Shown piece by piece: positions 7,161 through 22,776 of a stretch of DNA of 64,000 nt; the first letter of the stretch is position 1; each line of letters starts with the position of its first letter. The translations under genes were made by a program, and so were the position numbers. The notes beneath the pieces were generated by a model. The model saw nothing but the letters and a program-made list of their open reading frames with translations, searched no databases and was not told the DNA's origin. The stretch lies in the NCBI GenBank assembly GCA_014138725.1, contig JACJID010000004.1, positions 930,001 through 994,000 on the forward strand, given 5' to 3'. The stretch comes from Kutzneria viridogrisea. GTDB lineage: Bacteria > Actinomycetota > Actinomycetes > Mycobacteriales > Pseudonocardiaceae.

Positions 7161-7685
7161 TCAGCTGTTCCAGAACAGGTCGAGCTGCGGAGTCCGGTCG
7201 ACCGCCTCCACGTCCAGCAGCCGCCGTTTGACGGTGAGCCCACCCGCGTAGCCGATCAGTGCGCCGCCCGCGCCGAGCACCCGGTGACAGGGCACCACGA
7301 TCAGCACCGGGTTGAGGGCCATCGCCCGGCCGACGGCGCGGGCCGCGGTCGGCGGCAGTCCCAGGGACTCGGCCAACCGGCCGTAGGTCGTGGTCTGGCC
7401 GTACCGCACCGAGTCCAGCCCGGCCAGGATCCGCCGGTCGCCGAGGTGCGCGTACCGGAGGTCGGCCGGAACGGTGAACTCGCGCAACGCCCCGTCGAGG
7501 TAGGCACCGATCTCCTCACGGGCGAGCTCAAGCCACTGCGGAGCCGCACCGGTGGCGGGTTCGAGCGGGTAACGGCCAGCCACCTCCTCGGCCGAGTCGA
7601 AGGAGCAGACCGTCAGCCCGGTGTCGGAGGCGCCGATCGTCAACGGCCCCACGGTGGTGTCGAAGGTCAGCAGCGGTGCGGTCAC
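7161..7685 (-). CDS. Methylated-DNA-[protein]-cysteine S-methyltransferase (Ogt-like)
   Basis: A suicide repair protein that removes alkyl groups from O6-alkylguanine. The 174-residue product has the active-site VPCHRV with acceptor Cys133, the Tyr/Arg finger region TTTYGRLAESLGLPPTAARAVGRAMALNP, and the C-terminal GYAGG...K.LL segment. The GTG has AGAGGA six bases upstream. It follows the second methyltransferase gene by 11 bases and is third in an operon headed by an ECF sigma factor, suggesting an alkylation-response unit. Confidence 0.93.
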   Translation of the reverse strand: MTAPLLTFDTTVGPLTIGASDTGLTVCSFDSAEEVAGRYPLEPATGAAPQWLELAREEIGAYLDGALREFTVPADLRYAHLGDRRILAGLDSVRYGQTTTYGRLAESLGLPPTAARAVGRAMALNPVLIVVPCHRVLGAGGALIGYAGGLTVKRRLLDVEAVDRTPQLDLFWNS

Positions 7686-7696
7686 GGGCGGTCCTC

Positions 7697-8476
7697 TCAG
7701 GCGGGCTGGTCGACGGGGCCGGGACGGCAGTGGCGGCAGGGCCGGTACCCCGCGTCGGCGGCCTGCTCCACGCTGCGGAACCCGCGCCGGTGCGGGGCCG
7801 TGATCCGCCTGGCGTGGTGGCAGGTCGGGAAGCACACGATGCCCGTGGTGTCGCTGCCCAGGAAGTGCACGCGTGCCCGCGCGAGCGACCGCACCTCCTC
7901 CAGGTCGAGGTTCTCCGCCCGCAGCAGGGACTCCTTCATGGGCGTCCCGAACACGTACTCGCCGAGGACGCCGCCCGCGCGGGTGACCCGGTGGCAGGGC
8001 ACCAGCACGGGCACCGGGTTGCGCACCAGCGCGGACCCGACCGCGCGCACCGCCGACGGGCGGCCCACCTCGCGGGCAACCCAGCTGTACGGCCGGGTCT
8101 GCCCCGACGGGATGCGCAGCACCACGGCGAGCACCTCCCGGTCGAACTGGCTGAGGCCATCGAGGTCGAAGCGCAGCGACCGGGCGGATCCCTTGCGCAG
8201 GGCCGGAAGCAGGCCCGCGGGCGGCCGTTCGGCGGGCAGCAGCGGCCGACCGCGCAGATCTCGGTAGTGCGCAAGGAACTCCGCGCTGCCACCGGGCGCG
8301 CACTCGGCCGGGAGCACGCAGTCGATCCCCCGATCGGTGCTGGCCACGTACAGTTCGCCGATCGGACCGGGTACCCGGATCCACCGGCTGAAGACGCGGT
8401 CCACGAGGCTGGTCGGCGGGGCGGCGAGCAATTCGCCGAGCGCCCGCGCGAGGGGGTCGGATCCGTCGGTCGTCAT
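7697..8476 (-). CDS. O6-alkylguanine transferase fused to a C-terminal Ada zinc domain
   Basis: A 259-residue two-domain protein. Residues about 25-190 form an Ogt/Ada-C methyltransferase with acceptor Cys161 in VPCHRV. Residues about 205-252 form an Ada metal-binding domain with Cys215, Cys219, Cys247 and Cys250 (C-x3-C ... C-x2-C, GYRPCRHCRP). In E. coli Ada the zinc domain is N-terminal and followed by an AraC helix-turn-helix; here the order is reversed and the AraC part is missing. The ATG overlaps the sigma-factor stop in an ATGA. If the zinc domain keeps Ada chemistry, it could accept methyl groups from phosphotriesters and act as a sensor. Confidence 0.88.
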   Translation of the reverse strand: MTTDGSDPLARALGELLAAPPTSLVDRVFSRWIRVPGPIGELYVASTDRGIDCVLPAECAPGGSAEFLAHYRDLRGRPLLPAERPPAGLLPALRKGSARSLRFDLDGLSQFDREVLAVVLRIPSGQTRPYSWVAREVGRPSAVRAVGSALVRNPVPVLVPCHRVTRAGGVLGEYVFGTPMKESLLRAENLDLEEVRSLARARVHFLGSDTTGIVCFPTCHHARRITAPHRRGFRSVEQAADAGYRPCRHCRPGPVDQPA

Positions 8477-9078
8477 CGCCGGTCCCTCCTGCCTGTGGGC
8501 TCGGGCAGTGCGGTCGGTGGCGGCCCGTCGGCGCACAGCAGGCGCAATCGCCGCAGTCCCCGGGAGACGTGGGACTTGGCGGTGCCCTCGGGGCAGCCCA
8601 GCACGGCGGCCACCTCGGTCATCGACAGCCCCGCGACGTGCCGCAGCACCACCGCTGTTCGTTGTGCCTGCGGCAGATCCGCCAGCAGGGCACCGAGTTC
8701 ACGTTGGCTCTCACCGCTTTCCACCAGCTCCTCGACCCCGGGCCCTTCGTGCAGCCTTTCGGGCAGAGTCGCCACCGGCACGTGGTGCGGGCGCCTGCTG
8801 GCGTCGCGGGCGGCGTTGCGCCAGGTGTTGAGGGCGATGGTGAGCAGCCAGGGCTTGAGGCGCAGGGCGAGGATCCGCGCGCGGTCGTAGCCGCGCAGGG
8901 CTCGGTAGGCCCGCAGGAAGGTCTCCGCGGCGAGGTCCTCGGCCTCCTCGGGCCGTCCGGAGGCACGCAGTACGACCGAGTGCACCAACGGCTCGTGGTC
9001 GCGGACCAGGCGGTGGAACCCGGCGTCCAGGTCCTCGGCCAGACCAGCCAGCAGCGCCTCGTCCGTCTCCTCCTCCAT
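8473..9078 (-). CDS. ECF-type RNA polymerase sigma factor
   Basis: A 201-residue sigma-70 family protein with region 2 at about residues 20-95 (AEDLAAETFLRAYRALRGYD) and region 4 at about 125-180 (LPQAQRTAVVLRHVAGLSMTEVAAVLGCPEGTAKSHVSRGL). No anti-sigma gene with a zinc motif follows; instead the next gene is the Ogt-Ada fusion, which it overlaps by four bases. That place in an operon is normally taken by the sigma factor's regulator. Upstream on its own strand is TGCAACC about 35 bases before the start, weakly like an ECF -35 element. Confidence 0.92.
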   Translation of the reverse strand: MEEETDEALLAGLAEDLDAGFHRLVRDHEPLVHSVVLRASGRPEEAEDLAAETFLRAYRALRGYDRARILALRLKPWLLTIALNTWRNAARDASRRPHHVPVATLPERLHEGPGVEELVESGESQRELGALLADLPQAQRTAVVLRHVAGLSMTEVAAVLGCPEGTAKSHVSRGLRRLRLLCADGPPPTALPEPTGRRDRR

Positions 9079-9456: not shown

Positions 9457-10527
9457 TTGAGCGACAGCACACGTTTGCCAGTTGACAGTTATTCGCAGGC
9501 GGAGTTGGACGCTGCACCATTTGCCGCCAACCGGCTACTACTCGCTGCCGCCAAGGCGAGCCACGCACAGGTCCAGCAGGCGCTTGACATGAACCTCCAG
9601 GCGCTGTCGGCGCTCCATTCGGAGCAGAACAAGACCGAAACGGTCACCCGCGTATCACAGCGGTCAATTCCACGTTGGCACTTCGCCATGCTGAACGACG
9701 CGGAACGCAACGACGCACTCGCCGTGGCGCTGGAACGGCAGATAAAACCGGGCATGCACGTGCTGGACATCGGTTCCGGAAGCGGGTTGCTCGCGCTCAT
9801 GGCCGTGCAGGCCGGGGCCACCAAGGTGACCACCTGCGAGGCGAATCCCATTCTCGCCGAGATCGCACGACAGGTGATCGGTGAGCACGGGATGTCGGAG
9901 TTCATCACCGTCGTGCCCGCGATGTCCACCGAACTCGTGGCCGGCCGGGACCTGCCGGACCGGGCCGACCTCATCGTGTCCGAGATCGTGGACTGCGGGC
10001 TGATCGGCGAGGGCCTGCTGCCGACCATGCGGCACGCGAGGCAACACCTGCTCGCACCGGGCGGCCGCATCATGCCGCCCTCGGGCAGGCTGCGCGGCGC
10101 CCTGCTGGAGAGCAAGGTCGTCGCCGGGTTCAACCGGGTCACCGTGGCCGCGGGCTTCGACATGAGGGCCCTCAACGTGACGGCGACCAGCGGGCACTTC
10201 CCGGTCCGGCTGTCCACCTGGCCGCACCGGGTGCTCAGCGAGCACGCGGAGCTGGTCGACTTCGACATCGAGCACGGCGACCTGGACAACGGGCAGCGGC
10301 GCGTGCCGCTGCATCCCGTCGCGGACGGGACCGCGCACGGTGTCGTCGCGTGGTTCGAGATGGACCTGGGCGGCGGAATCGTGCTCAGGAATTCGCCCGA
10401 CAACATCGGGTCGCACTGGATGCAGGCTTTCATCCCGTTCGCGGAGCCGGTTCCGGTGCGTGCTCTGCGCACCGTGGACGTGACGATCCAGTGGGACGAC
10501 ACGAAACTCTTCGCGAGTGTGGCCTAA
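9457..10527 (+). CDS. sznE: PRMT7-like arginine N-methyltransferase, SznE-like
   Basis: A 356-residue SAM-dependent methyltransferase. It shows motif I VLDIGSGSGLLALMAV (residues 102-117) and the acidic residue ending motif II in TTCEANP. The two-glutamate loop SEIVDCGLIGEG (Glu176, Glu185) matches the PRMT7-type loop in which the guanidine is held. SznE of the streptozocin pathway is of this type and makes N-omega-methyl-L-arginine from free L-arginine. The next gene is an SznF homologue 20 bases downstream, which strongly supports that role. The start is TTG, seven bases after GGGGGG; the ATG overlapping it is out of frame. The first 200 bases are less GC-rich than the rest. Confidence 0.87.
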   Translation: MSDSTRLPVDSYSQAELDAAPFAANRLLLAAAKASHAQVQQALDMNLQALSALHSEQNKTETVTRVSQRSIPRWHFAMLNDAERNDALAVALERQIKPGMHVLDIGSGSGLLALMAVQAGATKVTTCEANPILAEIARQVIGEHGMSEFITVVPAMSTELVAGRDLPDRADLIVSEIVDCGLIGEGLLPTMRHARQHLLAPGGRIMPPSGRLRGALLESKVVAGFNRVTVAAGFDMRALNVTATSGHFPVRLSTWPHRVLSEHAELVDFDIEHGDLDNGQRRVPLHPVADGTAHGVVAWFEMDLGGGIVLRNSPDNIGSHWMQAFIPFAEPVPVRALRTVDVTIQWDDTKLFASVA

Positions 10528-10547
10528 CCATTCAACTGGGGAGAACC

Positions 10548-11969
10548 ATGAGCAACGTGGGACCGTACCGCCCCTTCGAACTGGGAGGCGCCGACCTCAG
10601 GGAAGCGGTCAAGCGGTACACCAGCAATCCCCTCTACCTCGACAACGAGGAGTGGGAGAACGACGACAACCCGTACCGCAGGCAGTTGCGGCCACAGGTG
10701 GTCGAACACCTGGACTTCGATCGCGTGTTGGGCCGGGACGAGATCCTGGACTACGAGAACCTGGCCGCTCAGCGCATCCTCACCACGATTTACGAGACCG
10801 ATCTGGTCTTCTTCCCCAAGTCCGGGCTCTCCGACCCGGCGAAGTGGGCGGACTTCACCAACTTCTACAGCTCGTCCAACCGCGTGCTCGGTGAGATGGT
10901 CCGGCCCGCGCTGGAACGTCACGTCTTCGGTTTCCTGGACACCGAGGTCGAGGTGTCCGGCAAGTGGACCAAGGATTCCCTCGAGGCATTCCTCCGGACG
11001 TTGGAAGACCGTCCCCAGGAGCCGTCGAAGCCGGAAAGCGCTATCAGGAATTCAAGCGACCCGGAGCGGGCCGCGCGCATGTGGCTCATCCAGTTCGCCC
11101 CCGACTTCCTGTCCGAGGCCTCCCCCATGATCCGCAACGCCCTGGGCTACTACGGCGAGGCGCAGTCCGAGTGGTTCAAGGTCATCATCGACGAGTACGG
11201 CTACGGGGTGCACGACACCAAGCACAGCAAGCTGTTCGAGCGCACGCTGGAGTCGGTCGGCCTGCGGACCGACGTGCACCACTACTGGCAGTACTACCTG
11301 TCCAGCAGCCTGATGATGAACAACTACTTCCACTACCTGGGCAAGAACCACGAGCTGTTCTTCCGCTACCTCGGGGCCCTGTACTACACCGAGACCACGC
11401 TCGTGGACTTCTGCCGCCGCGCGGACGAGCTGCTGCGGCACGTGTTCCCGGGCACGGTGGACACCCAGTACTTCACCGAGCACGTGCACATCGACCAGCA
11501 CCACGGCCGGATGGCCCTGGAGAAGATCATCCTCCCGGTGGTGGAGGCCTGCGGCGAGGCGGTCATCCCGGAGATCGTGCGCGGCTTCGAGGAGTTCCAG
11601 GTGATCGCGGAGATCGCCGACGAGGACTTCGCCAGGCAGATCGCCTGGATGGACGGCGGGCCGCGCAACAAGGAGCTGCACGCCCCGGTGTGGGAGGCCA
11701 TCCAGAGCGGCCGGGTGAGCGCGCCGGTGGCGCACATCGTGGAGCCGCACGGCGAACTGTCCAACACGCACTGCCACAACGGCGACGAGCTGTGCCACAT
11801 CGTGTCCGGGACCATGCGGTTCGTCAGCGGGTTCAACTCCTTCCAGATCCTGGAGGCGGGCGAGGGCACCGTGATCAACCGCAACCGGCTGCACGGTGCG
11901 ATCATCGAGTCGGACGAGTGCGTGTACGAGATCCACTCGGTGGGGGACTACGAGAAATGCTTGTCCTGA
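10548..11969 (+). CDS. sznF: SznF-like N-nitrosating enzyme: di-iron HDO domain plus cupin
   Basis: A 473-residue metalloenzyme. SznF uses a heme-oxygenase-like di-iron domain to hydroxylate the guanidine nitrogens of N-omega-methyl-L-arginine, and a C-terminal cupin iron site to rearrange the product into an N-nitrosourea. All seven di-iron ligands appear present: Glu190, Glu216, His226, Glu282, His312, Asp316 and His319. The cupin has His408 and His410 (NTHCHNGDE) and His449 (NRLHGAI). As I recall the SznF numbering, each is shifted by exactly one. An N-terminal region of about 150 residues matches the dimerisation part. GGGGAG precedes the ATG. The stop overlaps the next gene by 13 bases. 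Confidence 0.93.
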   Translation: MSNVGPYRPFELGGADLREAVKRYTSNPLYLDNEEWENDDNPYRRQLRPQVVEHLDFDRVLGRDEILDYENLAAQRILTTIYETDLVFFPKSGLSDPAKWADFTNFYSSSNRVLGEMVRPALERHVFGFLDTEVEVSGKWTKDSLEAFLRTLEDRPQEPSKPESAIRNSSDPERAARMWLIQFAPDFLSEASPMIRNALGYYGEAQSEWFKVIIDEYGYGVHDTKHSKLFERTLESVGLRTDVHHYWQYYLSSSLMMNNYFHYLGKNHELFFRYLGALYYTETTLVDFCRRADELLRHVFPGTVDTQYFTEHVHIDQHHGRMALEKIILPVVEACGEAVIPEIVRGFEEFQVIAEIADEDFARQIAWMDGGPRNKELHAPVWEAIQSGRVSAPVAHIVEPHGELSNTHCHNGDELCHIVSGTMRFVSGFNSFQILEAGEGTVINRNRLHGAIIESDECVYEIHSVGDYEKCLS

Positions 11970-12310
11970 GCTTCGCGGTCAGCGGTGCGGGCAACTGCGT
12001 GACCGTCGAGGACATGCCCTACGTGTACGCCCGGTCCCGGCTCGGCTCCTTCGTGCTGCCCGCCCGCTGCCCGCACCGGGGCGGCCCGCTGCACCTGGCC
12101 ACGGTCGAGCCGGACCGGGCCCGCCTGGTGTGCCCCTGGCACGAGCGGGCCAGCTCGGTCCGCCGGGCGCTCAGCTCGGGCGTGCCCGTGGTGCGCAACG
12201 GGAACCGGGCGACGGCGGTGTTCCCGCACGACGCGGGAACACCGCACCACCTGACCCACCGGCCACTGTCCGCGGACCTCGCGGGCAAGACCTTGGAGGA
12301 CCGCAGTTGA
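11957..12310 (+). CDS. Small Rieske [2Fe-2S] protein
   Basis: A 117-residue ferredoxin-like protein with the two Rieske cluster motifs CPH (Cys38, His40) and CPWH (Cys59, His62), 19 residues apart. It has no oxygenase domain, so it should be an electron carrier. Its ATG lies inside the end of the SznF-like gene, implying coupled production with it. Possible partners are the SznF-like enzyme, which needs reduction of its di-iron site, or the MOSC protein further down. Which one it serves cannot be read from sequence. Confidence 0.85.
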   Translation: MLVLSFAVSGAGNCVTVEDMPYVYARSRLGSFVLPARCPHRGGPLHLATVEPDRARLVCPWHERASSVRRALSSGVPVVRNGNRATAVFPHDAGTPHHLTHRPLSADLAGKTLEDRS

Positions 12311-13575
12311 GCACTGCTCGCCGTCCGGCGGTGATCGTCGACCCGTACTCCTCGGGCGCGCTGTTCGCCCCCGCCTTCCAGCAGGCGGGGGTGCCAGTCC
12401 TCGCGCTGGTCTCCAGCCCGGTCCCGCCGCAGGTGTACGCGGCCTCGTTCCGGCCGCAGGACTACCCGGAGGTCATCACGCACCACGGTGACCTGGCGCA
12501 GACCCAGCGGCGGCTGCGCGAGCTGGACCCGCTGTGCGTGCTGCCCGGCTGCGAGTCCGGGGTGGAGCTGGCCGACCGCCTCACCGCGGCGGTGCTGCCC
12601 GAGCAGGCCAACGTGCCCGAGCTGACCGACGCGCGGCGGCACAAGGGCGCGATGGCCGAGGCCGTGGCGCGGGCCGGGCTGCCGACCATCCCCCAGATCT
12701 GCACGGACGACCCGGGGCGGGTGGCCGCGTGGATCGCCGAGTCCGGGCTGGCCGGGCGGGACCTGGTGGTCAAACCGCCGAAGAGCGCGGGCACCGACGG
12801 GGTGACCAAGGTGCCGGGCGGCCGGGGCTGGCAGCAGGTCTTCGAGGGCCAGATCGGTCGGCCGAACCGGCTCGGCCTGGTCAACGAGCAACTGCTGGTC
12901 CAGGAGTACGCCGTGGGCACGGAGTACGTGGTGGACCTGTTCAGCCACGGGGGTGAGCACACCGTGGCCGACGTGTGCCGCTACGGCAAGGTGGACAACG
13001 GGGTCCACATGGCGGTGTACGAGAGCCTGGTGTGGCTGGCGCCCGAGGACCCGGTGGTCCCGGTGGTGACCGCGTACGCGAAGCAGGTGCTGGACGCGGT
13101 GGGGCTGTGGTACGGCACCGCGCACGTCGAGCTGATGCTGACTGCGGACGGTCCCCGGCTGATCGAGGTCGGGGTGCGGCCGCACGGCGGTGGCCACCCG
13201 CGGTACTGCCGCGCGGCCACCGGGGACAGCCAGGTCGACCGAGCGGTCCGGTACTTCACCGGGCAGGGCGAAATCCCCGGGGACTACCAGCTGCGCAGGC
13301 ACGTGCGGGTGGTGTTCCTGATGAGCCGGACCGCGGGCGTGGTGCGCAGCGCCGCCTCGCTGTCGGCGATCGGGGAGCTGGCCAGCCACCACGAGTCGGT
13401 GATCAACGTGCGCGCCGGGGACCGCATCGGGGTCACCGAGGACCTGTTCGCCACCTTCGACCTGGGCTTCGTCGTGCTCGCACACCCCGACCGGGAGCAG
13501 GTGCTCGCCGACGAGGCGGCCGTGCGGCGCGCGGAGGCGGGCCTGGAGGTCCTCGCCGAGGCCGTACCGACATGA
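12307..13575 (+). CDS. ATP-grasp carboxylate-amine ligase
   Basis: A 422-residue ATP-grasp protein. The ATP lysine lies in DLVVKPPKSAGTDGV, the hinge region in LLVQEYAVGTEYVVD, and the metal-binding end in LIEVGVRPHGGG. This architecture resembles dipeptide and amino-acid ligases acting in natural-product pathways. The TTG start overlaps the Rieske stop, with GGAGG seven bases upstream. In this cluster it would activate the carboxylate of an amino acid, perhaps the nitrosated citrulline, and join it to an amine. Substrates are unknown. Confidence 0.88.
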   Translation: MSTARRPAVIVDPYSSGALFAPAFQQAGVPVLALVSSPVPPQVYAASFRPQDYPEVITHHGDLAQTQRRLRELDPLCVLPGCESGVELADRLTAAVLPEQANVPELTDARRHKGAMAEAVARAGLPTIPQICTDDPGRVAAWIAESGLAGRDLVVKPPKSAGTDGVTKVPGGRGWQQVFEGQIGRPNRLGLVNEQLLVQEYAVGTEYVVDLFSHGGEHTVADVCRYGKVDNGVHMAVYESLVWLAPEDPVVPVVTAYAKQVLDAVGLWYGTAHVELMLTADGPRLIEVGVRPHGGGHPRYCRAATGDSQVDRAVRYFTGQGEIPGDYQLRRHVRVVFLMSRTAGVVRSAASLSAIGELASHHESVINVRAGDRIGVTEDLFATFDLGFVVLAHPDREQVLADEAAVRRAEAGLEVLAEAVPT

Positions 13576-14186
13576 TCAGCGCGGGGTTCCTGCTCAGCTC
13601 GCTCCTGGTGATCATGACTCCCGGCCCGGACCTGCTGCTGATCACGCGCATGCTGCTCAGGGACCGCCGGCAGGGCCCCGCGCTGGCCGCCGCGGCCGGG
13701 ATGATCACGGCGGGGGCGCTGCACGCGGCGATCGGGCTGGCCGGGCTGGCCCTGCTGTTGCAGACCGAACCCTGGCTGTTCACGGCGCTGCGCTGGGTGG
13801 GCGCGGCGGTGCTGTTCGGCTGGGGGGTGCTGACCCTGCGCTCGGCGCTGCGCACCCCCGCCGACGCGCCCGGGGCGAGCGCCCCGCCCCAGCACGGCAG
13901 GGCCTTCTGGCAGGGGCTGGCGTGCACCGGGTCCAACCCGAAGGTGGGGCTGTTCCTGGTGGCGTTCCTGCCCCAGTTCGTGCCGACCGGGCCGGGGGCG
14001 ACCTCGGCGGTGGTGCTGCTGGCGGCCGTCTACCTGGCGATGGGCCTGGCCTGGCTGGTGATCTGGATCCAGCTGGCCCACTGGCTGAGCAGGTACCTGG
14101 TGGTCCCCTCGGTGACGCGGGCGGCCGAGGTCCTGCTCGGCCTGGTGTTCCTGGGTTTCGGCGTGCGCCTGCTCGTGAGCGGCTGA
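13572..14186 (+). CDS. LysE/RhtB-family exporter
   Basis: A 204-residue membrane protein with about six hydrophobic helices and the LysE family N-terminus VIMTPGPDLLLI, plus the internal SNPKVGLFLVAFLPQFV segment. LysE/RhtB proteins export amino acids and derivatives. The ATG overlaps the ATP-grasp stop in an ATGA. In the cluster it could release an arginine- or citrulline-derived product or intermediate and so protect the producer from an alkylating compound. Confidence 0.9.
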   Translation: MISAGFLLSSLLVIMTPGPDLLLITRMLLRDRRQGPALAAAAGMITAGALHAAIGLAGLALLLQTEPWLFTALRWVGAAVLFGWGVLTLRSALRTPADAPGASAPPQHGRAFWQGLACTGSNPKVGLFLVAFLPQFVPTGPGATSAVVLLAAVYLAMGLAWLVIWIQLAHWLSRYLVVPSVTRAAEVLLGLVFLGFGVRLLVSG

Positions 14187-14210
14187 GCGGGCCGGGGAGG
14201 TGGTCAGCCC

Positions 14211-14924
14211 GTGCGGATCGGCTGGGTCGAACAACTGCGCCGGTACCCGGTGAAGTCGATGGCGGGCGAGCTTCTGTCCACTGTGGACTTCGACGCGCGG
14301 GGCGTGCGGCAGGACCGGTTGTGGGCACTGCGGCTGCCCGACGGCAGGCTGGGCAGCGGCAAGACCTCGGCGCGCTTCCGGCGGGTCCCCGGCATCGCGC
14401 TGGCCAGCGCGCGGTGCGTCGGCGAGGTGCCGGTCATCACGCTCGCCGACGGCACCGAGCACCGGGGCGACACCCCGGAGATCGACTCGGTGCTCAGTGC
14501 CGCCTTCGGCACACCACTGGGCCTGCGGCGCGAGTGCGGGTCCTCGCACTTCGACGACGGCCCGGTGCACCTGGTCAGCAGCGCCGCGATCGAGCACGTG
14601 GAGCGGCTGTCCGGGGTCGCGGTCGCGGCGGAGCGGCTGCGGCCCACCGTGCTGGTGCGTGGCCGGCCCGGGGCCGAACCGGGGTACCGGCACTGGCTGG
14701 GCCGGCGCGTGCGGATCGGCCCGGAGGTGGAACTGGAGGTCCTGGCGCCGATGCGGCGCTGCGGAATGGTCAACAACGCCACGCGCGGACTGCCGCGCGA
14801 CAACCGCGTGCTGCGGGCGATAGCCCAGCACGCGGACCTGGTGCTCGGGGTGGTCGCCGCGGTGGTCCGCGGTGGCCGCGCGTCAACCGGCGACGAGGTT
14901 CGCCTGACCGGAAACGGCAGCTGA
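14211..14924 (+). CDS. MOSC-domain molybdenum protein (mARC/YcbX type)
   Basis: A 237-residue protein with a MOSC N-terminal beta barrel (VEQLRRYPVKSMAGELL) and a C-terminal MOSC domain with the candidate molybdenum-ligating Cys184 in MRRCGMVNN. YcbX and mARC enzymes of this layout reduce N-hydroxylated compounds. YcbX carries its own 2Fe-2S domain, but this protein ends before such a domain. The separate Rieske protein of the operon could fill that role. A natural target would be the N-hydroxyl left by the SznF-like enzyme. This function is inferred; family membership is clear. Confidence 0.85.
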   Translation: MRIGWVEQLRRYPVKSMAGELLSTVDFDARGVRQDRLWALRLPDGRLGSGKTSARFRRVPGIALASARCVGEVPVITLADGTEHRGDTPEIDSVLSAAFGTPLGLRRECGSSHFDDGPVHLVSSAAIEHVERLSGVAVAAERLRPTVLVRGRPGAEPGYRHWLGRRVRIGPEVELEVLAPMRRCGMVNNATRGLPRDNRVLRAIAQHADLVLGVVAAVVRGGRASTGDEVRLTGNGS

Positions 14925-14966
14925 GACCAGCTGCAACCGAACGACTACAGGTGGTGTTCTCCGATC

Positions 14967-16433
14967 GTGGACAACTTCGCTCACATGCCGGCCACCCGGC
15001 TGGCAGACATGATCAGGCGGCGGGACGTGTCGCCGGTTGAAGTGGTCAAGGCCTGTCTGGAACGCATCGAGCAGCGCAACCCGGAGGTGAACGCCTTCGT
15101 CACCCTGTGCCCGGAGCAGGCACTCGACGCCGCCCAACGCGCCGAGCACGCGGTCCTGGCCGGTGAGCCGTTGCCCCCGCTGCACGGCGTGCCGATCGCG
15201 GTCAAGGACCTCGACCCGGTCGCCGGGGTGCGCATGACCCGGGGCTCCGCGGTGTACGCCGACCTGGTGCCCACCGAGACGGTGGAGTGCGTGGAGCGGT
15301 TGGTCCGCGCCGGGGCCATCGTGGTCGGCAAGACCAACACCCCCGAGTTCGGGCACAAGGCCACCACCGACAACAGCCTGTTCGGGCCGACCAGCACCCC
15401 GTTCAACCTGGCGATGAACGCGGGCGGGTCCTCGGGCGGCAGCGCGGCGGCGGTGGCCGCGGGCCTGGTGCCCATCGCCCAGGGCTCCGACGCGGGCGGC
15501 TCGCTGCGCGTGCCCGCCTCGTTCTGCGGCGTGTTCACCCTGATGACCACGTTCGGCCGGGTGGCGGTGCCCGCCCGGCCCAACGCCTTCCGCAGGCTCA
15601 ACCCCATGGTGTGCTTCGGCGCGCTGACCCGCACGGTCGAGGACTCGGCCCTGGTGCTGGACCTGATGTCCGGGCCGCACTCCCGCGACCCCTACTCCTT
15701 CCCGGTGCACGACCGGCTCGGCGACCACCTGAACCGCTCTCTGGCGGGCGTGCGCGTGGCCTACACGCCGACGCTGGGCGGCTACCCGGTCGAGCCGGAG
15801 GTCGACGCCCTGGTGCGCGCGGCCGTGCCGGTGCTGGCGCAGGCCGGTGCCGAGGTCGACGAGGTGGACTTCCGACTGCCCCTGCCGCACGGGGAACTGA
15901 CCAGCGTGTGGCGCCGCTACCTGAAGGTGGCCCACGCGGAGTCCGTGGAGTACTCGCGGCGCAACGGGCTGGACATGCTCGGCGAGTGGCGGGACCGGAT
16001 CGCGCCGGAGTTCGTCGAAAGCGCGACGCTGGGCGCGCAGCCCTCGGCGGTGGACTCGAAGATGGACGACATCGTCCGCACCGAGGTGCTCGACGCCTTC
16101 GAGGACCTGTTCGACGACTACGACCTCGTGGTCAGCCCGGTCAACTGCGTCACGGGCATCGCCAACGACTCGACCCGCACGACCAAGGGCCCGGCCACCG
16201 TGGCGGGCGAGCCCGTCGACGAGCAGGTCGGCTGGTCCATGACCAGCCCGTTCAACTTCATCGGCAGCCCGGCAGCCAGCGTGCCGGTGGGCCGTGCGGC
16301 CAACGGGGTCCCGGTCGGGTTGCAGATCGCGGCCCGGCGGGGCAACGACGTGGCCGTGGCGGCGGCCAGCGCCGCCTTCGAGCGGTGCCGCCCCTGGCAG
16401 GACCTCTACCTCGCGCTGGAGGATCGCGCATGA
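14967..16433 (+). CDS. Amidase-signature family hydrolase
   Basis: A 488-residue amidase with the Ser-cis-Ser-Lys triad: Lys80 in PIAVKDL, Ser155 in the glycine-rich NAGGSSGGSAAAVAAG, and nucleophile Ser179 in SDAGGSLRVPA. It would cut or form an amide bond. Length and domain are normal for the family. The start is a GTG 42 bases after the MOSC stop, the largest gap in the downstream cluster. Its stop overlaps the HAD gene in an ATGA. It may release the product from an amino-acid carrier made by the ATP-grasp ligase. Confidence 0.92.
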   Translation: MDNFAHMPATRLADMIRRRDVSPVEVVKACLERIEQRNPEVNAFVTLCPEQALDAAQRAEHAVLAGEPLPPLHGVPIAVKDLDPVAGVRMTRGSAVYADLVPTETVECVERLVRAGAIVVGKTNTPEFGHKATTDNSLFGPTSTPFNLAMNAGGSSGGSAAAVAAGLVPIAQGSDAGGSLRVPASFCGVFTLMTTFGRVAVPARPNAFRRLNPMVCFGALTRTVEDSALVLDLMSGPHSRDPYSFPVHDRLGDHLNRSLAGVRVAYTPTLGGYPVEPEVDALVRAAVPVLAQAGAEVDEVDFRLPLPHGELTSVWRRYLKVAHAESVEYSRRNGLDMLGEWRDRIAPEFVESATLGAQPSAVDSKMDDIVRTEVLDAFEDLFDDYDLVVSPVNCVTGIANDSTRTTKGPATVAGEPVDEQVGWSMTSPFNFIGSPAASVPVGRAANGVPVGLQIAARRGNDVAVAAASAAFERCRPWQDLYLALEDRA

Positions 16434-17098
16434 GCACTGGTTTCAAGGCCGCCCTGTTCGACATGGACGGCACCCTGGCCGACAGCGAGCCGCGCAGCCG
16501 CTGGGCGTGGCAGCGGCTGTTCACCACGTACGGCCTGCCGCTGGAGGAGGCCGAGCTCAAGACCTTCTCCGGCAGGCGGGGCCAGGACGTGCTGGCCGAA
16601 CGGGTCCACCTGTTCCCGGTGGACAGCACCGTGGACGGGCTGTTCGAGGAGGCCATGGGGTACTGGGCGGTCGCGGAGGTGCCCAGCGCCGTGGCCGTGC
16701 CCGGCGCACCGGAACTGGTCCGGGCCGTGCACGCCGCCGGGGTGCCCGCGGCGATCGTGTCCTCGGGGCGGCGGGACGACGTGCGCGGCCTGCTGGCGGA
16801 ACTGGGTCTGGCGGAGCTGTTCGCGGTCATCGTCGCCTCGGAGGACGTCACCGAGGGCAAGCCGCACCCGGAGGGCTTCCTCACCGCCTGCGGGCACCTG
16901 GGGGTGTCCCCACAGGACACGGTGGTGTTCGAGGACGCGCCCGCCGGGGTGGCCGCCGCGAAGGCCGCCGGCGCGGCCTGCGTCGCGGTGACCACCACCC
17001 GGCCCGGCTCCCAGCTCACCGAGGCCGACCTGGTGGTGGCGGACTTCGTCGGGATGACCTGGCCGCCGGTGCTGGACGGCACGAGGGCGCGACCGTGA
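16430..17098 (+). CDS. HAD-superfamily phosphatase (beta-PGM-like)
   Basis: A 222-residue HAD hydrolase with nucleophile motif FDMDGTLADSE (Asp11, Asp13), a helical cap, motif II IVSSG, motif III Lys in EGKPHPE, and motif IV VFEDAPAGVAAA. It resembles beta-phosphoglucomutase and sugar-phosphate phosphatases. Start and stop overlap both neighbours by four bases. If the cluster makes a glucosamine-linked product, dephosphorylation of a hexosamine phosphate is a plausible role; the sequence does not prove this. Confidence 0.88.
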   Translation: MSTGFKAALFDMDGTLADSEPRSRWAWQRLFTTYGLPLEEAELKTFSGRRGQDVLAERVHLFPVDSTVDGLFEEAMGYWAVAEVPSAVAVPGAPELVRAVHAAGVPAAIVSSGRRDDVRGLLAELGLAELFAVIVASEDVTEGKPHPEGFLTACGHLGVSPQDTVVFEDAPAGVAAAKAAGAACVAVTTTRPGSQLTEADLVVADFVGMTWPPVLDGTRARP

Positions 17099-18516
17099 AC
17101 GCACTGCCGGTCGGCGCGCGGTGGCTGCTCGCCGTGCTGCTGAGTGGTCAGCTCATGGTCAACGTGGACCTGGCGATCGTGAACACCGCGGCACCGTCCA
17201 TTCAGGACACCCTGCACACCAGCGGCGGGGAGCTGGAACTGGTGGTCTCCGGCTACATCCTGGCCTACGCGGTGCTGCTGATCACCGGCGCGCGGCTGGG
17301 CGCGATCCACGGCTACCGGCGGCTGTTCATCCTCGGGCTCAGCGGGTTCGTGCTGGCCTCGCTGGCCTGCGGGCTGGCTCCCGGGACGGGCTGGCTGATC
17401 GCGGCCAGGGTCGTGCAGGGCGCCGCGGCGGCGCTGATGGTGCCGCAGGTGCTCAGCGGGATCCAGCTGAACTTCGAGGGCGGCGCCCGGGCCACGGCGA
17501 TCGGCTACTACAGCCTGGCCCTGTCCGGGGGTGCGGTGCTCGGGCAGCTGCTCGGCGGGGTGCTGGTGTCCGCCGACCTGTTCGGCAGCGGCTGGCGGCC
17601 GATTTTCCTGATCAACGTGCCGCTGGGGATCGCGCTGCTGGCCGCCGCGATCCGCTATCTGCCGGTCGACGGCAGGTCGGGGCGCGGCAGGCAACTGGAC
17701 CTGCTCGGGGTGGCCGTGCTCTCGCTGGCCCTGCTGCTGGCCGTGGTGCCGCTGGTGTTCGGCCGGGAGGCGGGCTGGCCGGTGTGGACCTGGCTGTGCC
17801 TGCTGGCGAGCCTGCCCGCGTTCGGCTGGTTCGTGCTGGTGCAGCGCAGGACCACCGCGCGCGGCGGGCACCCGCTGGTGAACCTGTCGCTGGTGAACCG
17901 CCCCGCGGTGCGGTGGGGGCTCGTCGCGCACGGCGCGAGCACCCTGACCTACCTCGCGCTGCTGTTCGTGCTGGCGGTCTACCTCCAGAGCGGGCTCGGC
18001 CTCAGTCCCGCCTACTCGGGCTTCGCGCTGGTGACCTGGGTGGCCGCCTTCGGCGTGGCGGGGCCGCTGCTGCCCCGGCTGCCGTCCCGGCTCGTGCCGG
18101 TGCTGCCCGCGGCGGGCTGCGGCATCCTGGCGCTGGCCTACCTGGCCACCAGCGCCGTGGTGGCGGCAGGGCACGGCGGGGACGCCCTGCTGCTGGCCGT
18201 GCTCGGGGTGGGCGGGTTCGGGCTCGGCCTGAGCTCGGCCTCGCTGATCACCCACCTGACCGCGGCGACCCCGACCCGGTACGCCACCGACATCAGCGGG
18301 GTGATCAGCACCAACGCGCAGATCTGGGGCGCGGTGGGCGTGGCGGCGGCGGGCACGGCGTACCTGGGCATGGCCGAGGTCCCCGGGCCCGGGCCGGGCA
18401 CGCACGCCTTCACCGTGATCACGGCCTGCTTCGGCGCGCTGGCGCTGGCCGCCGCGGCGGCCTCGCTGCGGGCCACGCGGGCGGTCGAGCGCCCCTCGGA
18501 GGTCCCGGTGGGCTGA
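17095..18516 (+). CDS. DHA2-type MFS exporter
   Basis: A 473-residue transporter of the 14-helix drug:H+ antiporter class. It shows the DHA2 N-terminus MVNVDLAIVNTAAPSIQ, the motif A-like GARLGAIHGYRR, and the proton-coupling antiporter motif around ALSGGAVLGQLLGGVL. The GTG overlaps the HAD stop. It closes the cluster, followed by a strong hairpin. A likely job is export of the finished compound and self-resistance. Confidence 0.92.
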   Translation: MNALPVGARWLLAVLLSGQLMVNVDLAIVNTAAPSIQDTLHTSGGELELVVSGYILAYAVLLITGARLGAIHGYRRLFILGLSGFVLASLACGLAPGTGWLIAARVVQGAAAALMVPQVLSGIQLNFEGGARATAIGYYSLALSGGAVLGQLLGGVLVSADLFGSGWRPIFLINVPLGIALLAAAIRYLPVDGRSGRGRQLDLLGVAVLSLALLLAVVPLVFGREAGWPVWTWLCLLASLPAFGWFVLVQRRTTARGGHPLVNLSLVNRPAVRWGLVAHGASTLTYLALLFVLAVYLQSGLGLSPAYSGFALVTWVAAFGVAGPLLPRLPSRLVPVLPAAGCGILALAYLATSAVVAAGHGGDALLLAVLGVGGFGLGLSSASLITHLTAATPTRYATDISGVISTNAQIWGAVGVAAAGTAYLGMAEVPGPGPGTHAFTVITACFGALALAAAAASLRATRAVERPSEVPVG

Positions 18517-18665: not shown

Positions 18666-19121
18666 TCAACGCTGCCAGGTGAGCAGCGCTTCCCCCGCCT
18701 TGACCGGGCCGGGCTCGTGCACGTCCACCAGGGACTCCGCCGAGGCGTCCAGCGCGATCACCGGGCAGATCGGCGAACGGCCGCCCTGCTCGATCTCGGC
18801 CGGGTTCCAGCCGATCACCGGCTGTCCCGCGCGCACCGTCTCACCCTTGACCACGTGCAGGGTGAAGCCCTCGCCCTTGAGCTTGACGGTGTCGATGCCC
18901 AGGTGCACCAGCACCGCGGCGCCGCTCTCGGTGGCCACCACGAAGGCGTGCGGGTGCAGGGTGACGACCGTGCCGTCCACAGGGGACACCGCGTCGCCCG
19001 CCGTCCGCTCGGGCTGCACGGCGATGCCCGGGCCGACCATGGCCTGGGCGAACACGGGGTCCGGCACCTCGCTCAGCGGCACGACCTCACCGCTGACCGG
19101 GCTGAGCACCGTGAGAGTCAC
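18666..19121 (-). CDS. crr: PTS glucose-family EIIA component
   Basis: A 151-residue soluble phosphocarrier. It has the EIIA-Glc fold signatures VLSPVSGEVVPL, AVSPVDGTVV and VLVHLGIDTVKLKGEGF, with phospho-accepting His73. It passes phosphate from HPr to EIIB for sugar import. The GTG overlaps the EIIB stop in a GTGA. The adjoining DasR-type regulator and operator point to N-acetylglucosamine as the sugar, as in Streptomyces. The symbol follows Streptomyces usage. Confidence 0.93.
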   Translation of the reverse strand: MTLTVLSPVSGEVVPLSEVPDPVFAQAMVGPGIAVQPERTAGDAVSPVDGTVVTLHPHAFVVATESGAAVLVHLGIDTVKLKGEGFTLHVVKGETVRAGQPVIGWNPAEIEQGGRSPICPVIALDASAESLVDVHEPGPVKAGEALLTWQR

Positions 19122-19354
19122 AGCAGGTCCTCGATGTCGCTGGCGATCGTGTCGGCCTCGGGGCCCACGATGACCTGCACCACGGAACCCGCACGCAGCA
19201 CGCCGTGAGCCCCAGCGGCCTTCAGCGCGGCCTCGTCCACCTTCGAGCCGTCCTCCAGCTCGCAACGCAGCCGGGTGATGCACGGCTCGATCTCGATGAT
19301 GTTGTCGGGACCACCGATCGCGGCCAGGATCTTCGCCGCCCTGTCGTCAGCCAT
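19118..19354 (-). CDS. PTS EIIB component, GlcNAc/glucose family
   Basis: A 78-residue stand-alone EIIB domain with phospho-accepting Cys25 in IEPCITRLRCEL. It takes phosphate from EIIA and hands it to the sugar bound by EIIC, encoded just across the divergent regulator gene. The ATG at 19354 has AGGA four bases upstream; an open frame continues ten codons further without a better site. NagF is the Streptomyces counterpart. Confidence 0.92.
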   Translation of the reverse strand: MADDRAAKILAAIGGPDNIIEIEPCITRLRCELEDGSKVDEAALKAAGAHGVLRAGSVVQVIVGPEADTIASDIEDLL

Positions 19355-19490
19355 CTCGTCCTGCTCTCGCTCGTCGTTGCACAACCGGCCGCCAGTCGTA
19401 CGCGTGTCGGCCGGATGGTGCCATCACGCAGTACGAACGCGTAACGGTAGTTGACACCCGGTCGCCCGGCGGCGCATCCTCCCCGCACCA

Positions 19491-19506
19491 ACTGGTCTAG
19501 ACCGGA
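19491..19506. promoter_or_regulatory. DasR operator (dre) in the EIIB/dasR gap
   Basis: The 16-mer ACTGGTCTAGACCGGA carries a perfect ten-base palindrome GGTCTAGACC and fits the known dre consensus ACTGGTCTAGACCACT except for the last bases. It lies between the divergent EIIB and GntR genes, 80 bases upstream of the GntR start. Control of both directions by the GntR protein, released by glucosamine-6-phosphate, is the expected scheme. Confidence 0.85.
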
Positions 19507-19570
19507 ACGTACCAATATCGGCGACTGGGATCGACCCCAGGGGCCGAGAACGAGGATTCGAGGAGGGGTG

Positions 19571-20359
19571 GTGGCCCAGTTCGAGGGAGTGGATCACACC
19601 ACCAACCGGATCGTCGACGGACCCAAGCCCAAGCACGCCCAACTGCGGGAGATCCTGCGCAGGCTCGCCGAGCACGAACTGCCCTCGGGGTCGCCGATCC
19701 CCAGCGAGCGCGACCTCGCCGACCAGTACGGGGTGTCCCGGCTGACGGTCCGCGCCGCGGTCGGCCAACTGGTCGCTGAGGGCCTGTTGACCAGGGCCCG
19801 CGGGCGCGGCACGTTCACCGCCCAGCGCCGCATGGAGGTCCAGCTCTACCTGGAGTCCTTCACCGACGACATGCGCCGCAGGGGCCACGAGCCCAGCACC
19901 GAGGTGCTCTCCTGCGCCGAACTGGCCCCGCCGCCCGCCGTGGTCACCGCGCTGGGCCTGGAGCCCACCGAGACGGCCTACCAGCTGTTCCGCCTGCGCC
20001 GCGCGGACGGCACCCCGCTGGCCGTGGAGCGCGGCTGGTACAACCGCCGCAAGCTGCCCGGCCTGCTCGGCGCGGACCTGAGCCGCTCCCTGTACACGCT
20101 GATGGCCGAGGACTACGGGGTCCAGCTCAACCACGGCAGGCAGACCGTGTGGGCCGAGGGCGCCGACCGGGAGACCGCCCGCCTGCTCGGCATCCGCACC
20201 GGCTCCCCGGTGCTGGTGTTCCGGCGGATCTCCACCGCAGACGCACAGCCGGTCGAGGACATGACGTCCTGGTACCGGGGCGATCTCTACCAGGTAACCA
20301 TGCAGTTGGACCGGGGCACCCCAGGTTCCGGTCCGCTTCCCCACGGAGGAAACCGATGA
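19571..20359 (+). CDS. dasR: GntR/HutC-family regulator, DasR-like
   Basis: A 262-residue repressor with an N-terminal winged helix (residues about 25-85: SGSPIPSERDLADQYGVSRLTVRAAVGQLV in pieces, then ARGRGTF) and a C-terminal UTRA effector domain (PLAVERGWYNRR, TGSPVLVFRRI). DasR controls chitin and GlcNAc use in Streptomyces and senses glucosamine-6-phosphate. The neighbours here are all GlcNAc PTS genes, and dre sites precede them and both chitinases in the window, so orthology is likely. The GTG start sits four bases after a GAGGAGG-type site. Its stop overlaps the EIIC gene in an ATGA, which would couple regulator and permease. Confidence 0.87.
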   Translation: MAQFEGVDHTTNRIVDGPKPKHAQLREILRRLAEHELPSGSPIPSERDLADQYGVSRLTVRAAVGQLVAEGLLTRARGRGTFTAQRRMEVQLYLESFTDDMRRRGHEPSTEVLSCAELAPPPAVVTALGLEPTETAYQLFRLRRADGTPLAVERGWYNRRKLPGLLGADLSRSLYTLMAEDYGVQLNHGRQTVWAEGADRETARLLGIRTGSPVLVFRRISTADAQPVEDMTSWYRGDLYQVTMQLDRGTPGSGPLPHGGNR

Positions 20360-21627
20360 GTGCCAGCGCCCCCACGGTCGCGGGCAGCAACAAGGGGTTG
20401 GCGGGGCTGCAACGCCTCGGCCGCAGCCTGATGCTGCCGATCGCGACGCTGCCCGCGGCAGGCCTGCTCCTGCGCCTTGGCCAGGACGACCTGCTCGGCA
20501 GCTTCAAGAACCCGTTCATGCAGAAGGTCGCCGGGGTGCTGGCCGCGGCGGGCGGTGGCCTGTTCAACTGGCTGCCGCTGCTGTTCGCGGTCGGCATCGC
20601 GGTCGGTTTCGCCCGCAAGGGCGACGGGTCGACAGCGGTGGCCGCCGCGGTCGGGTTCGTGGTGTTCACCCAGGTCATCCAGGTGTTCGCCCCGGTGGAG
20701 GCGAAGAAGGTCGGCGACGCGCCGATTCCCCCGGGCAGCTGGCCCTACGGTGTGCTCGCGGGCATCGTGGTCGGCATCGTCAGTGCCCTGCTGTGGCAGC
20801 GGTTCTACCGCACCAAGCTGCCACCGTACCTGGCGTTCTTCGGTGGCCGCCGGTTCGTGCCGATCATCAACTCCGTGGTGCTGATGGTGCTCGGCGTGAT
20901 CTTCGGCCTGCTGTACCCGATCTTCAACGCGGGCCTGACCGCCTTCGGCAACTTCGTGTCCAACAACCCGGTCGTCGGCGGCGGCATCTACGGTGTGGTC
21001 AACCGCCTGCTGGTGCCCTTCGGCCTGCACAACGTCATCAACTCGGTGGTGTGGTTCCTGTCCGGTCACTTCACCGGCGCCGACGGCAAGGACTACACCG
21101 GTGACCTGACGCGGTTCTTCCACGGGGACACCACCGCGGGCAGCTACATGACCGGCTTCTTCCCGATCTTCATGTTCGCCCTGCCCGCCGCGGCGCTGGC
21201 CATCTGGCGCAACGCACGGCCCTCGCAGCGCAAGGTCGTCGGCGGCATCATGATCTCCGCCGCGCTGACCTCCTTCCTCACCGGCATCACCGAGCCGATC
21301 GAGTTCTCCTTCATGTTCGTGGCCTGGCCGCTGTACCTGATCCACGCGGTGCTCACCGGTAGCTCGCACGCGCTGACCAACGCACTGGGCATCCACGACG
21401 GGTTCTCCTTCTCCGCCGGTGCGATCGACTACCTGCTGAACTTCGGCATCGCGCAGAAACCGCTGCTGCTACTGCTGGTCGGCGTGATCTACGGTGCGAT
21501 CTACTACTTCGTGTTCTCCTTCGTGATCAAGAAGTGGAACATGCGCACGCCGGGTCGCGAGGAGGAGGGCGAGGAGCAGCTCGACGGCGATGTCGCGGTG
21601 ATCGAGCCCAAGAGTCACAAGGCCTGA
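20356..21627 (+). CDS. PTS EIIC permease, N-acetylglucosamine type
   Basis: A 423-residue membrane permease of the glucose/GlcNAc superfamily with about ten helices. It shows the N-terminal LQRLGRSLMLPIATLPAAGLLLRLG, the conserved PFGLHNVINSVVW loop, and the EIIC signature GITEPIEFSFMF with the sugar-binding Glu. It takes up and, with EIIB, phosphorylates the sugar. It corresponds to Streptomyces NagE2, judged from the stand-alone EIIC form and context. The start overlaps the regulator stop. Confidence 0.92.
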   Translation: MSASAPTVAGSNKGLAGLQRLGRSLMLPIATLPAAGLLLRLGQDDLLGSFKNPFMQKVAGVLAAAGGGLFNWLPLLFAVGIAVGFARKGDGSTAVAAAVGFVVFTQVIQVFAPVEAKKVGDAPIPPGSWPYGVLAGIVVGIVSALLWQRFYRTKLPPYLAFFGGRRFVPIINSVVLMVLGVIFGLLYPIFNAGLTAFGNFVSNNPVVGGGIYGVVNRLLVPFGLHNVINSVVWFLSGHFTGADGKDYTGDLTRFFHGDTTAGSYMTGFFPIFMFALPAAALAIWRNARPSQRKVVGGIMISAALTSFLTGITEPIEFSFMFVAWPLYLIHAVLTGSSHALTNALGIHDGFSFSAGAIDYLLNFGIAQKPLLLLLVGVIYGAIYYFVFSFVIKKWNMRTPGREEEGEEQLDGDVAVIEPKSHKA

Positions 21628-21660
21628 CCACCCGGTCGAGCCGCTAGGGAAGGGAAAGAC

Positions 21661-21930
21661 ATGCCGGAACGACGGGTCACCGTGGCCTCCAAGGTCGGCC
21701 TGCACGCACGTCCTGCCGCGCTGCTGGCCAAGGCAGCGGCCGAGCAGCAGGTCGGCGTCACCATCCGCAAGGACGGGGGCGAGCCGGTGGACGCGGCCAG
21801 CGTGCTTGGCCTGATGACACTGGGCGCCATGCACGGTGACGAGGTTGTGCTGGCGGCCGAGGGCGACGGCGCGGACCAGGCACTGGAGGCGGTGGCGACG
21901 TTGATCGCCACCGACCTGGACCAGGACTGA
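21661..21930 (+). CDS. ptsH: Phosphocarrier protein HPr
   Basis: An 89-residue HPr with the phosphorylation site GLHARPAALL (His15). It relays phosphate from Enzyme I to EIIA. No Enzyme I gene is present in the window. The Ser46 region reads VDAASVLGLMTLG, so a regulatory serine position is present in sequence, though HPr kinase control is not typical of actinobacteria. It lies 33 bases behind the EIIC gene and is followed at once by a perfect terminator hairpin. Confidence 0.96.
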   Translation: MPERRVTVASKVGLHARPAALLAKAAAEQQVGVTIRKDGGEPVDAASVLGLMTLGAMHGDEVVLAAEGDGADQALEAVATLIATDLDQD

Positions 21931-21939
21931 CGAACTCGA

Positions 21940-21977
21940 CCAGGAGGGGTCACCGGCGTGCCGGTGACCCCTCCTGG
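21940..21977. terminator. Perfect 17-bp hairpin after ptsH
   Basis: Arms 21940-21956 and 21961-21977 pair perfectly around the loop CGTG. The hairpin ends 37 bases before the start of the deacetylase gene on the same strand, so the latter probably has its own promoter or relies on read-through. Confidence 0.85.
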
Positions 21978-22014
21978 CGTGCAACCCCCGGCCGGTCCGG
22001 GGCGTCAGTCGACC

Positions 22015-22776
22015 ATGACGAGCACACCGGGCGTGTTGTGCGTGCACGCCCACCCCGACGACGAGGCGCTGTTCACCGGCGGGCTGCTGGCCAGCTGCGC
22101 CGAGCAGGGGCTGCGGACCGGGGTCGTGACCTGCACGTGGCAGCAGGGCGACGCCCGGGTCGAGGAACTGCGGCGGTCGCTGGAGATCCTGGGGGCCGGT
22201 GAGCCGCGGCTGCTGGGCTACCGCGACTCGGGCATGGGCGGGGAGAACACGTTCTGCGCGGCCCCGTTCGACGAGGCGGTCAGCAGGCTCGTGGCGCACC
22301 TGCGGGAGTTCCGCCCCGAGGCGGTGGTGACCTACGACGCGTTCGGCACCTACGGGCACCCCGACCACATCCGGGCGCACCGCGTGACGCTGGCGGCGGT
22401 GGAGGCGGCGAACTGCGTGCAGCTGTACCCGGAGGCGGGCGAGCCGTGGCAGGTCGGGGCGCTCTACCTCGCGGTGCTGCCGCGCAGCGCCGTGGCCGGG
22501 GCCTGGCGGACGCTGTTCGGCGGGGACGTGCCCGCGCCGGGACCGGGTGTGCCGGGGGTGCCCGACGAGCAGGTGGCCCTCCGGCTGGACGTGCGGCCCT
22601 GGGTGGACCGCAAGTGGGCGGCCCTGCTCGCGCACGAGAGCGAGACCGCACGCGGGGCCGGGGCGGCACGGCTGGCCGGGCTGCCCGAGCGGGTAAGGCA
22701 GGACCTGCTGGGCACGGAGTGCTTCCTGCGCAGGGACTTGGCCCCGCCGAGCACGGTACGCACCACCCTGTTCTGA
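22015..22776 (+). CDS. PIG-L/LmbE-family deacetylase
   Basis: A 253-residue zinc-dependent N-deacetylase. The metal site is seen in VHAHPDDEALFTGG (His, Asp-Asp) and the second histidine motif in YGHPDHIRAH. The family includes MshB and Mca of the mycothiol pathway and deacetylases of GlcNAc-containing molecules. Its place next to the GlcNAc PTS genes is suggestive, but it lies beyond a terminator, so the link is not firm. I start at MTSTPG; the longer frame upstream is part of the hairpin. Confidence 0.85.
   Translation: MTSTPGVLCVHAHPDDEALFTGGLLASCAEQGLRTGVVTCTWQQGDARVEELRRSLEILGAGEPRLLGYRDSGMGGENTFCAAPFDEAVSRLVAHLREFRPEAVVTYDAFGTYGHPDHIRAHRVTLAAVEAANCVQLYPEAGEPWQVGALYLAVLPRSAVAGAWRTLFGGDVPAPGPGVPGVPDEQVALRLDVRPWVDRKWAALLAHESETARGAGAARLAGLPERVRQDLLGTECFLRRDLAPPSTVRTTLF

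Follow-up and report, generated by a model that had tools for sequence, protein, structure and literature searches.

Described SznF Systems and a Related Locus in Kutzneria

Streptozocin, a clinical drug and glucosamine derivative, is made by the szn/stz cluster of Streptomyces achromogenes subsp. streptozoticus, and the portions of the literature consulted describe enzyme steps in which arginine is methylated, N-hydroxylated twice and rearranged (PMC11705231; PMC13108848). The steps after SznF are assigned as “likely” in the part of a review consulted, where attachment of the sugar is put down, as likely, to SznH, SznJ, and SznK (PMC11705231). As far as the accessible text of a further paper goes, GrbD and ChmM (diazeniumdiolate) are SznF-family enzymes implicated in N-N bond formation from arginine, both colocalise with nonribosomal peptide synthetase (NRPS) and polyketide synthase (PKS) genes, ChmM is without diiron ligands, and SznF networks with 135 other proteins in szn-type clusters (PMC11177257). 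With the wider SznF family already mapped, the locus described here refines a known kind and opens no new one. It lies in a stretch of 64,000 nucleotides from Kutzneria viridogrisea (contig JACJID010000004.1, positions 930,001 to 994,000; hereafter the window), in which a nine-gene plus-strand operon occupies positions 9457-18516. We consider it fairly probable that this is an intact szn-type N-nitrosourea cluster of a second cassette class, with a DNA-methylating product that is more likely a streptozocin relative than streptozocin. That product is probably an N-methyl-N-nitrosourea conjugate and likely not streptozocin. Unlike the GrbD and ChmM clusters, the window has neither NRPS/PKS neighbours, none being found in a scan of proteins encoded between 6478 and 22773, nor any loss of diiron ligands.

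SznF and the Conserved Core

The second gene of the operon encodes an SznF orthologue with a haem-oxygenase-like diiron (HDO) domain and a cupin (10548-11969), residues 1-472 of which align with residues 1-471 of crystallised SznF (PDB 6M9R) at 71% identity (E = 4e-235) through the N-terminal, HDO and cupin domains. The initial annotation hinged on SznF-level similarity over both catalytic domains; the similarity covers both and, judged by this alignment, cannot be chance. All seven diiron ligands are identical (E189, which we take to be one of them, E215, H225, E281, H311, D315, and H318), as are H407, H409, H448, and Y459 of the cupin. All the residues just listed, E189 excepted, are given as essential for SznF activity in the portion of the review consulted (PMC11705231). 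The start codon is best placed at ATG 10548, where the protein begins as 6M9R does, while the start of the long open reading frame at 10350 is disfavoured.

The other eight genes, all on the plus strand, are found at the positions and with the Pfam domains expected from the initial annotation, which had placed an SznE-like and an SznF-like gene ahead of Rieske, ATP-grasp, LysE, MOSC, amidase, HAD, and DHA2 genes. They encode an SznE-like arginine N-methyltransferase (9457-10527; PRMT-like, Pfam PRMT_C), a Rieske ferredoxin-like protein (11957-12310; Pfam Rieske, with a C-x-H...C-x2-H motif), a K-type ATP-grasp enzyme resembling L-amino acid ligases (12307-13575; PDB 30vh, E 9e-48), a LysE-type amino-acid exporter (13572-14186; Pfam PF01810), a MOSC-domain protein (14211-14924; Pfam MOSC and MOSC_N), an amidase-signature enzyme (14967-16433; Pfam Amidase, 316 bits, with the Lys-Ser-Ser signature), a HAD phosphatase (16430-17098) and a DHA2-like MFS exporter (17095-18516; Pfam MFS_1). 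The K protein also matches the model of the dapdiamide synthase DdaF at E 1e-40, well short of the cut-off set for that model. The closest PDB entry to the amidase is the aryl acylamidase 4yj6 (E 3e-94). The HAD protein passes the general HAD-IA model TIGR01509, has the motifs DMDGT, GKPHPE, and ED, and is nearest the beta-phosphoglucomutase/YqaB sugar-phosphatase subfamily (TIGR02009, 126 bits, under the 153-bit cut-off), although its solved relatives also include pyrophosphatases. The exporter is nearest the DHA2/EmrB model, at 139 bits and under the 230-bit cut-off. With start codons as chosen here, genes overlap at five of eight junctions (SznF/Rieske, Rieske/K, K/LysE, amidase/HAD, and HAD/MFS), in agreement with the overlaps claimed for most junctions, and gaps of 20, 24, and 42 bp separate the rest.

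Comparison was made across 29 szn-type loci, namely the window, 13 loci from named genome contigs (SznF relatives on such contigs gave 14 loci) and 15 from a second family, taken as Streptomycetaceae. SznF searches returned nine matches at E ≤ 1e-20 in 297 genomes of the own family (Pseudonocardiaceae, to which Actinokineospora also belongs), the own genome included; two at E ≤ 1e-60 in 394 genomes of the class, one of them the own genome; and 16 at E ≤ 1e-60 in 394 genomes of the second family. The nine plasmid matches were each below 60% identity. Counts exclude L017 (on the same contig as L037), stretches that were short or that overlapped loci already counted, together with one stray match (L001-L004, L022-L028, L031-L033), L029 and L030 (31 and 26% identity) and five divergent loci treated apart (L019, L049-L052). 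For L006, L007, L038, and L047 the contig or stretch ends near the cluster, and absences there are weak. L010, the SznF of which is 93% identical to 6M9R, served as proxy for the streptozocin szn cluster, and the letters H to K were assigned from gene order together with the available part of the review (PMC11705231).

The core is close to universal in this set. SznF and Rieske genes are present in 29/29 loci, SznE in 28 and K in 27, with the full E-F-Rieske-K core in 27. SznE orthologues (49-73% identical to that of the window) stand directly upstream of SznF in 28 of the 29, and the Rieske gene follows SznF in every one.

Two Sets of Finishing Genes

Beyond this core the loci part into two classes. 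A J-type alpha/beta-hydrolase occurs in 16/29 loci, L010 among them, and 12 of these 16 also have an H-type ATP-grasp gene, whereas an amidase at 60% identity or more occurs in 12/29, the window included (a partial match of 32% in L008 was not counted). No fetched stretch among the 29 holds both J and the amidase, and a single locus (L048) has neither. The window and L010 have in common the SznE-SznF-Rieske-K-LysE core and the ECF sigma/alkyltransferase-Ada/Ogt repair genes described below. Missing from the window are the H ATP-grasp, I MFS, and J alpha/beta-hydrolase genes of L010, along with its AlkB-like gene and SARP regulator; MOSC, amidase, HAD, and DHA2 MFS genes stand there instead. 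The one-to-one match with the szn cluster proposed in the initial annotation, run here against L010, is therefore borne out for the core and fails for H, I, and J, where the amidase-HAD-DHA2 cassette is found instead. Elsewhere in the genome the window came from, no long match exceeds 39% for J or 37% for H (a 50-residue piece of H reaches 40%), while J and H range from 54 to 100% and from 46 to 100% identity among the loci that have them; no close orthologue of either was thus found in the genome.

The amidase is the hallmark of the window's cluster class. HAD and DHA2 genes stand beside it in nine of the 12 amidase loci, and the same core with the same cassette is seen in Actinokineospora terrae (L005), A. 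globicatena (L018), Streptomyces albipurpureus (L011), S. pyxinae (L014), L043, L044, L046, and L047, with amidases 65-89% identical to that of the window. Order and orientation vary among these loci, none has a MOSC gene, L005 and L018 are without LysE, and L043, L044, L046, and L047 add a glycosyltransferase that the window lacks. The three exceptions are L034-L036, beside the amidases of which no HAD orthologue was found and DHA2 matches were only partial (30-34%). Decay of these three amidases (60-63% identity) was considered and rejected, as the apparent truncation reflects the ends of the stretches and the genes are full length.

Other variants of the finishing genes were also seen. A glycosyltransferase (Glyco_transf_7C; L059:13292-14524) adjoins HAD in five cassettes (L059, L043, L044, L046, and L047), its copies being 72-84% identical to that of L059, with more distant relatives in 22 other genomes of the 394. 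It is not in the window cassette, and a search of the own genome, run without a positive control, was empty. The absence of an obvious glucosamine-attaching enzyme, offered in the initial annotation as a hint to the product, is uninformative, since a Pfam scan of ten L010 proteins showed no glycosyltransferase either. At L061:7288-13185 (genome G547, one of the three exceptions L034-L036; with L062 and L063) a third finishing variant is seen, in which genes for an AMP-binding enzyme, a cupin, an MFS protein and an SDR replace HAD and DHA2 beside the amidase, the neighbours having been scanned in L061.

Mobility of the Amidase Cassette

Phylogeny and gene content suggest that the cassette has a history of its own. 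Given the starred branches of the SznF tree, the nine cassette loci require no fewer than three changes, and the approximately unbiased (AU) test rejects a single clade for the twelve amidase loci with both SznF (p 4e-76) and K (p 6e-7). In L014, SznF and K group with the streptozocin clade and share 71 and 54% identity with their L011 counterparts, whereas the cassette is closest to that of L011, at 81, 76, and 79% identity for the amidase, HAD, and DHA2 proteins. On this evidence from trees and identities L014 shows cassette exchange directly, and the amidase cassette has moved between szn backbones. Distance correlations between cassette and core genes did not discriminate.

The cassette keeps company with SznF. 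Among the 394 genomes of the second family, each of the nine with the amidase (E ≤ 1e-130) also belongs to the 16 that have SznF (E ≤ 1e-60; hypergeometric 2e-14, ignoring relatedness); the amidase limit was our choice, up to four candidates were scored per genome and one family was sampled. In two of these nine, both genomes of J-type loci, the cassette stands away from SznF as a three-gene amidase-HAD-DHA2 unit: G911 has it 0.9 Mb from the J-type cluster, and in the broken assembly of G1002 it is on a different contig. Both kinds of cluster occur once each in A. terrae (J-type L015 and amidase-type L005) and in A. globicatena (L013 and L018).

A DDE_5 transposase-like gene adjoins SznE on its upstream side in eight szn loci (for example L046:5317-6408, the copy scanned by Pfam) and is a possible means of moving the cluster.

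A Divergent DNA-Repair Operon

Upstream of the biosynthetic genes and divergent from them lies a minus-strand repair operon (7161-9078) that the initial annotation overlooked; its nine genes stand, but the left boundary of the locus moves out to 7161. The first gene encodes an ECF sigma factor (8473-9078; Pfam Sigma70_r2 and r4_2), followed by an O6-alkylguanine-DNA alkyltransferase (AGT) fused to a C-terminal Ada zinc-binding domain (7697-8479; Pfam PF01035 and PF02805, with PCHRV and the four-cysteine Ada motif) and an Ogt-type AGT (7161-7700; PF01035, 91 bits, with the PCHRV active-site motif). The order sigma-adaL-ogt recurs at further szn loci, L009, L010, and L012 among them, and AGT homologues lie inside the fetched stretch in 21 of the 29 loci. 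The own genome holds six AGT domains in 10.25 Mb, two of them adjoining the cluster, where an even spread would give 0.012 per 20 kb. Such an operon is what would be expected for self-protection against a methylating nitrosourea. The link is already known in kind for streptozocin, AlkB and AGT homologues being credited with self-resistance in the available part of one paper (PMC9040887, citing Ng 2019).

The AlkB-like gene (PF09859) divides the classes, with 11/16 J-type stretches having it and 0/12 amidase-type ones (Fisher 0.0003, ignoring kinship), although it is also missing from five of the 16 J-type stretches. No such gene is in the window locus; one is found elsewhere in the genome, at C2:303704.

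Proposed Pathway and Competing Explanations

By orthology, the SznE homologue would methylate L-arginine, the SznF diiron domain would hydroxylate the methylated arginine twice, with the Rieske protein as probable electron donor, and the cupin would then rearrange it to N-delta-hydroxy-N-omega-methyl-N-omega-nitroso-citrulline. The K ATP-grasp enzyme, co-inherited with SznF in both classes, may couple this nitrosourea amino acid through an amide bond. The amidase, replacing H and J, could cleave the amide or pass the N-methyl-N-nitrosocarbamoyl group on to an acceptor. A sugar phosphate is a plausible acceptor, and the HAD phosphatase would then remove the phosphate. The DHA2 and LysE pumps would export the product, and the sigma/Ada-AGT/Ogt operon would repair the O6-methylguanine it causes. 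The conservation of K argues for two pathways that branch late, and genomes with both cluster kinds speak for different products. The suggestion in the initial annotation of a nitrosourea-type cluster, headed by SznE- and SznF-like enzymes and with a product perhaps other than streptozocin, is supported.

Several observations weigh against this interpretation. Four genomes (A. terrae, A. globicatena, G911, and G1002) hold both a J-type cluster and an amidase cassette, and there is no exclusivity at the genome level; this coexistence favours separate functions. K tracks SznF and not the cassette, so that both classes could in the end yield the same product. The roles proposed for K, the amidase, HAD, and MOSC are predictions from family membership, and the HAD protein and DHA2 pump fall below the curated cut-offs of specific NCBIfam models. 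No AGT is present in the stretches of L005 and L018, the two nearest relatives of the window cluster, nor in those of L006, L008, L014, L016, L047, and L048, and the active-site CHR letters are missing in eight of 16 AGT-Ada fusions (L012, L040-L046), those of the window being intact.

It is unlikely, though worth keeping in view, that the cluster makes streptozocin itself, with the amidase and HAD as unrelated replacements for J and H that might, for example, transfer the nitrosocarbamoyl group to glucosamine-6-phosphate and then dephosphorylate it. E, F, Rieske, and K are indeed common to both classes, with K behaving as just noted, J and the amidase, which fill alternative slots, are each from a serine-hydrolase family, and the sugar-phosphatase affinity of HAD would fit. 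However, with both cluster types in A. terrae and A. globicatena and a J-type cluster plus a separate cassette in G911 and G1002, redundancy for a single product is improbable, and in five other loci the cassette has a glycosyltransferase beside it.

We give somewhat less credence to a peptide product, in which K would build a dipeptide from the nitrosourea amino acid and a second amino acid, to be exported as the antibiotic. The resemblance of K to L-amino acid ligases and, weakly, to dapdiamide synthase is consistent with this, as is the LysE amino-acid exporter directly after K, but K and LysE are also present in streptozocin-class clusters, the known product of which is a sugar conjugate, and K need not shape the end product. 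That the cassette is instead a protection unit, by which an amide- or phosphate-masked nitrosourea is pumped out and unmasked or is destroyed in the cell, is very unlikely, for although the cassette is well separated from szn genes in G911 and sits on a different contig in the broken G1002 assembly, holds an exporter and shares its operon here with a presumably mARC-type MOSC protein, no kinase was found among the cluster proteins scanned, and most J-type loci have no cassette nearby, which indicates no general protective need; AGT genes already provide repair. The preferred reading remains a nitrosourea conjugate other than streptozocin.

Genomic Surroundings and Divergent Homologues

Five of six genus mates have chorismate synthase (2004-3221 in the window) immediately next to crr (18666), and relative to these the window carries about 15.4 kb extra between the two genes; in the sixth (L053) an A24 peptidase abuts crr. 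Right of the cluster (18666-24407) lie crr, a DasR-like regulator, nagE and a chitinase gene. These N-acetylglucosamine (GlcNAc) genes are tempting as a glucosamine supply because streptozocin is a glucosamine derivative, but this was rejected, since crr and nagE are found in 6/6 genus mates and dasR and the chitinase in 5/6 without szn genes. The GlcNAc phosphotransferase system genes and the chitinase are ancestral neighbours, not cluster genes. Between nagE and the chitinase is a PIG-L gene (GlcNAc de-N-acetylase family; 21958-22776) that was not found in the six genus-mate stretches, and the matches listed for a short dispersed repeat at 22780-22990 include more than 30 partial copies at other sites of the genome, in both orientations.

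The MOSC protein, which we take to be mARC/YcbX-like, has one counterpart among the 29 loci, in L038 (39% identity). Domains of the mARC type reduce N-hydroxyguanidines. At two of 29 loci the link to the cluster is weak, and MOSC looks like a lineage-specific addition.

The CHR-less AGT-Ada fusions keep the Ada zinc motif and may act as sensors rather than repair enzymes. The five divergent SznF homologues, L019 (8472-11315, on G000:C1 of the own genome) and L049-L052, are 35-40% identical to the window SznF, adjoin SznE-like and Rieske genes (in L019 also an MFS exporter) and keep the seven diiron ligands, while the three cupin histidines are lost in 5/5 (R/Q, A, and Y). In this they are the mirror image of ChmM, and they are predicted to N-hydroxylate arginine derivatives without N-N bond formation. 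In L048, H407 of SznF is replaced by Tyr and a Rieske gene adjoins, with no SznE or K in the stretch; this is probably a decaying or repurposed copy.

Implications for Nitrosourea Biosynthesis

Two finishing sets on one conserved core offer a clean comparative handle on the steps after SznF, and the strains with an amidase cassette are where a new nitrosourea might be sought. As a marker for genome mining the cassette may be of use too, given that 9/9 amidase genomes in the one family sampled have SznF. No account of the amidase class was found in the literature searched, a weak negative given the limited and partial coverage of those sources. Tentatively, and with the balance tilting slightly the other way, the amidase-HAD-DHA2 class may represent a second, undescribed natural N-nitrosourea family, in which swappable cassettes would send one building block to different acceptors and several strains would make two nitrosoureas. 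If so, actinobacteria would diversify a DNA-methylating warhead by cassette exchange.

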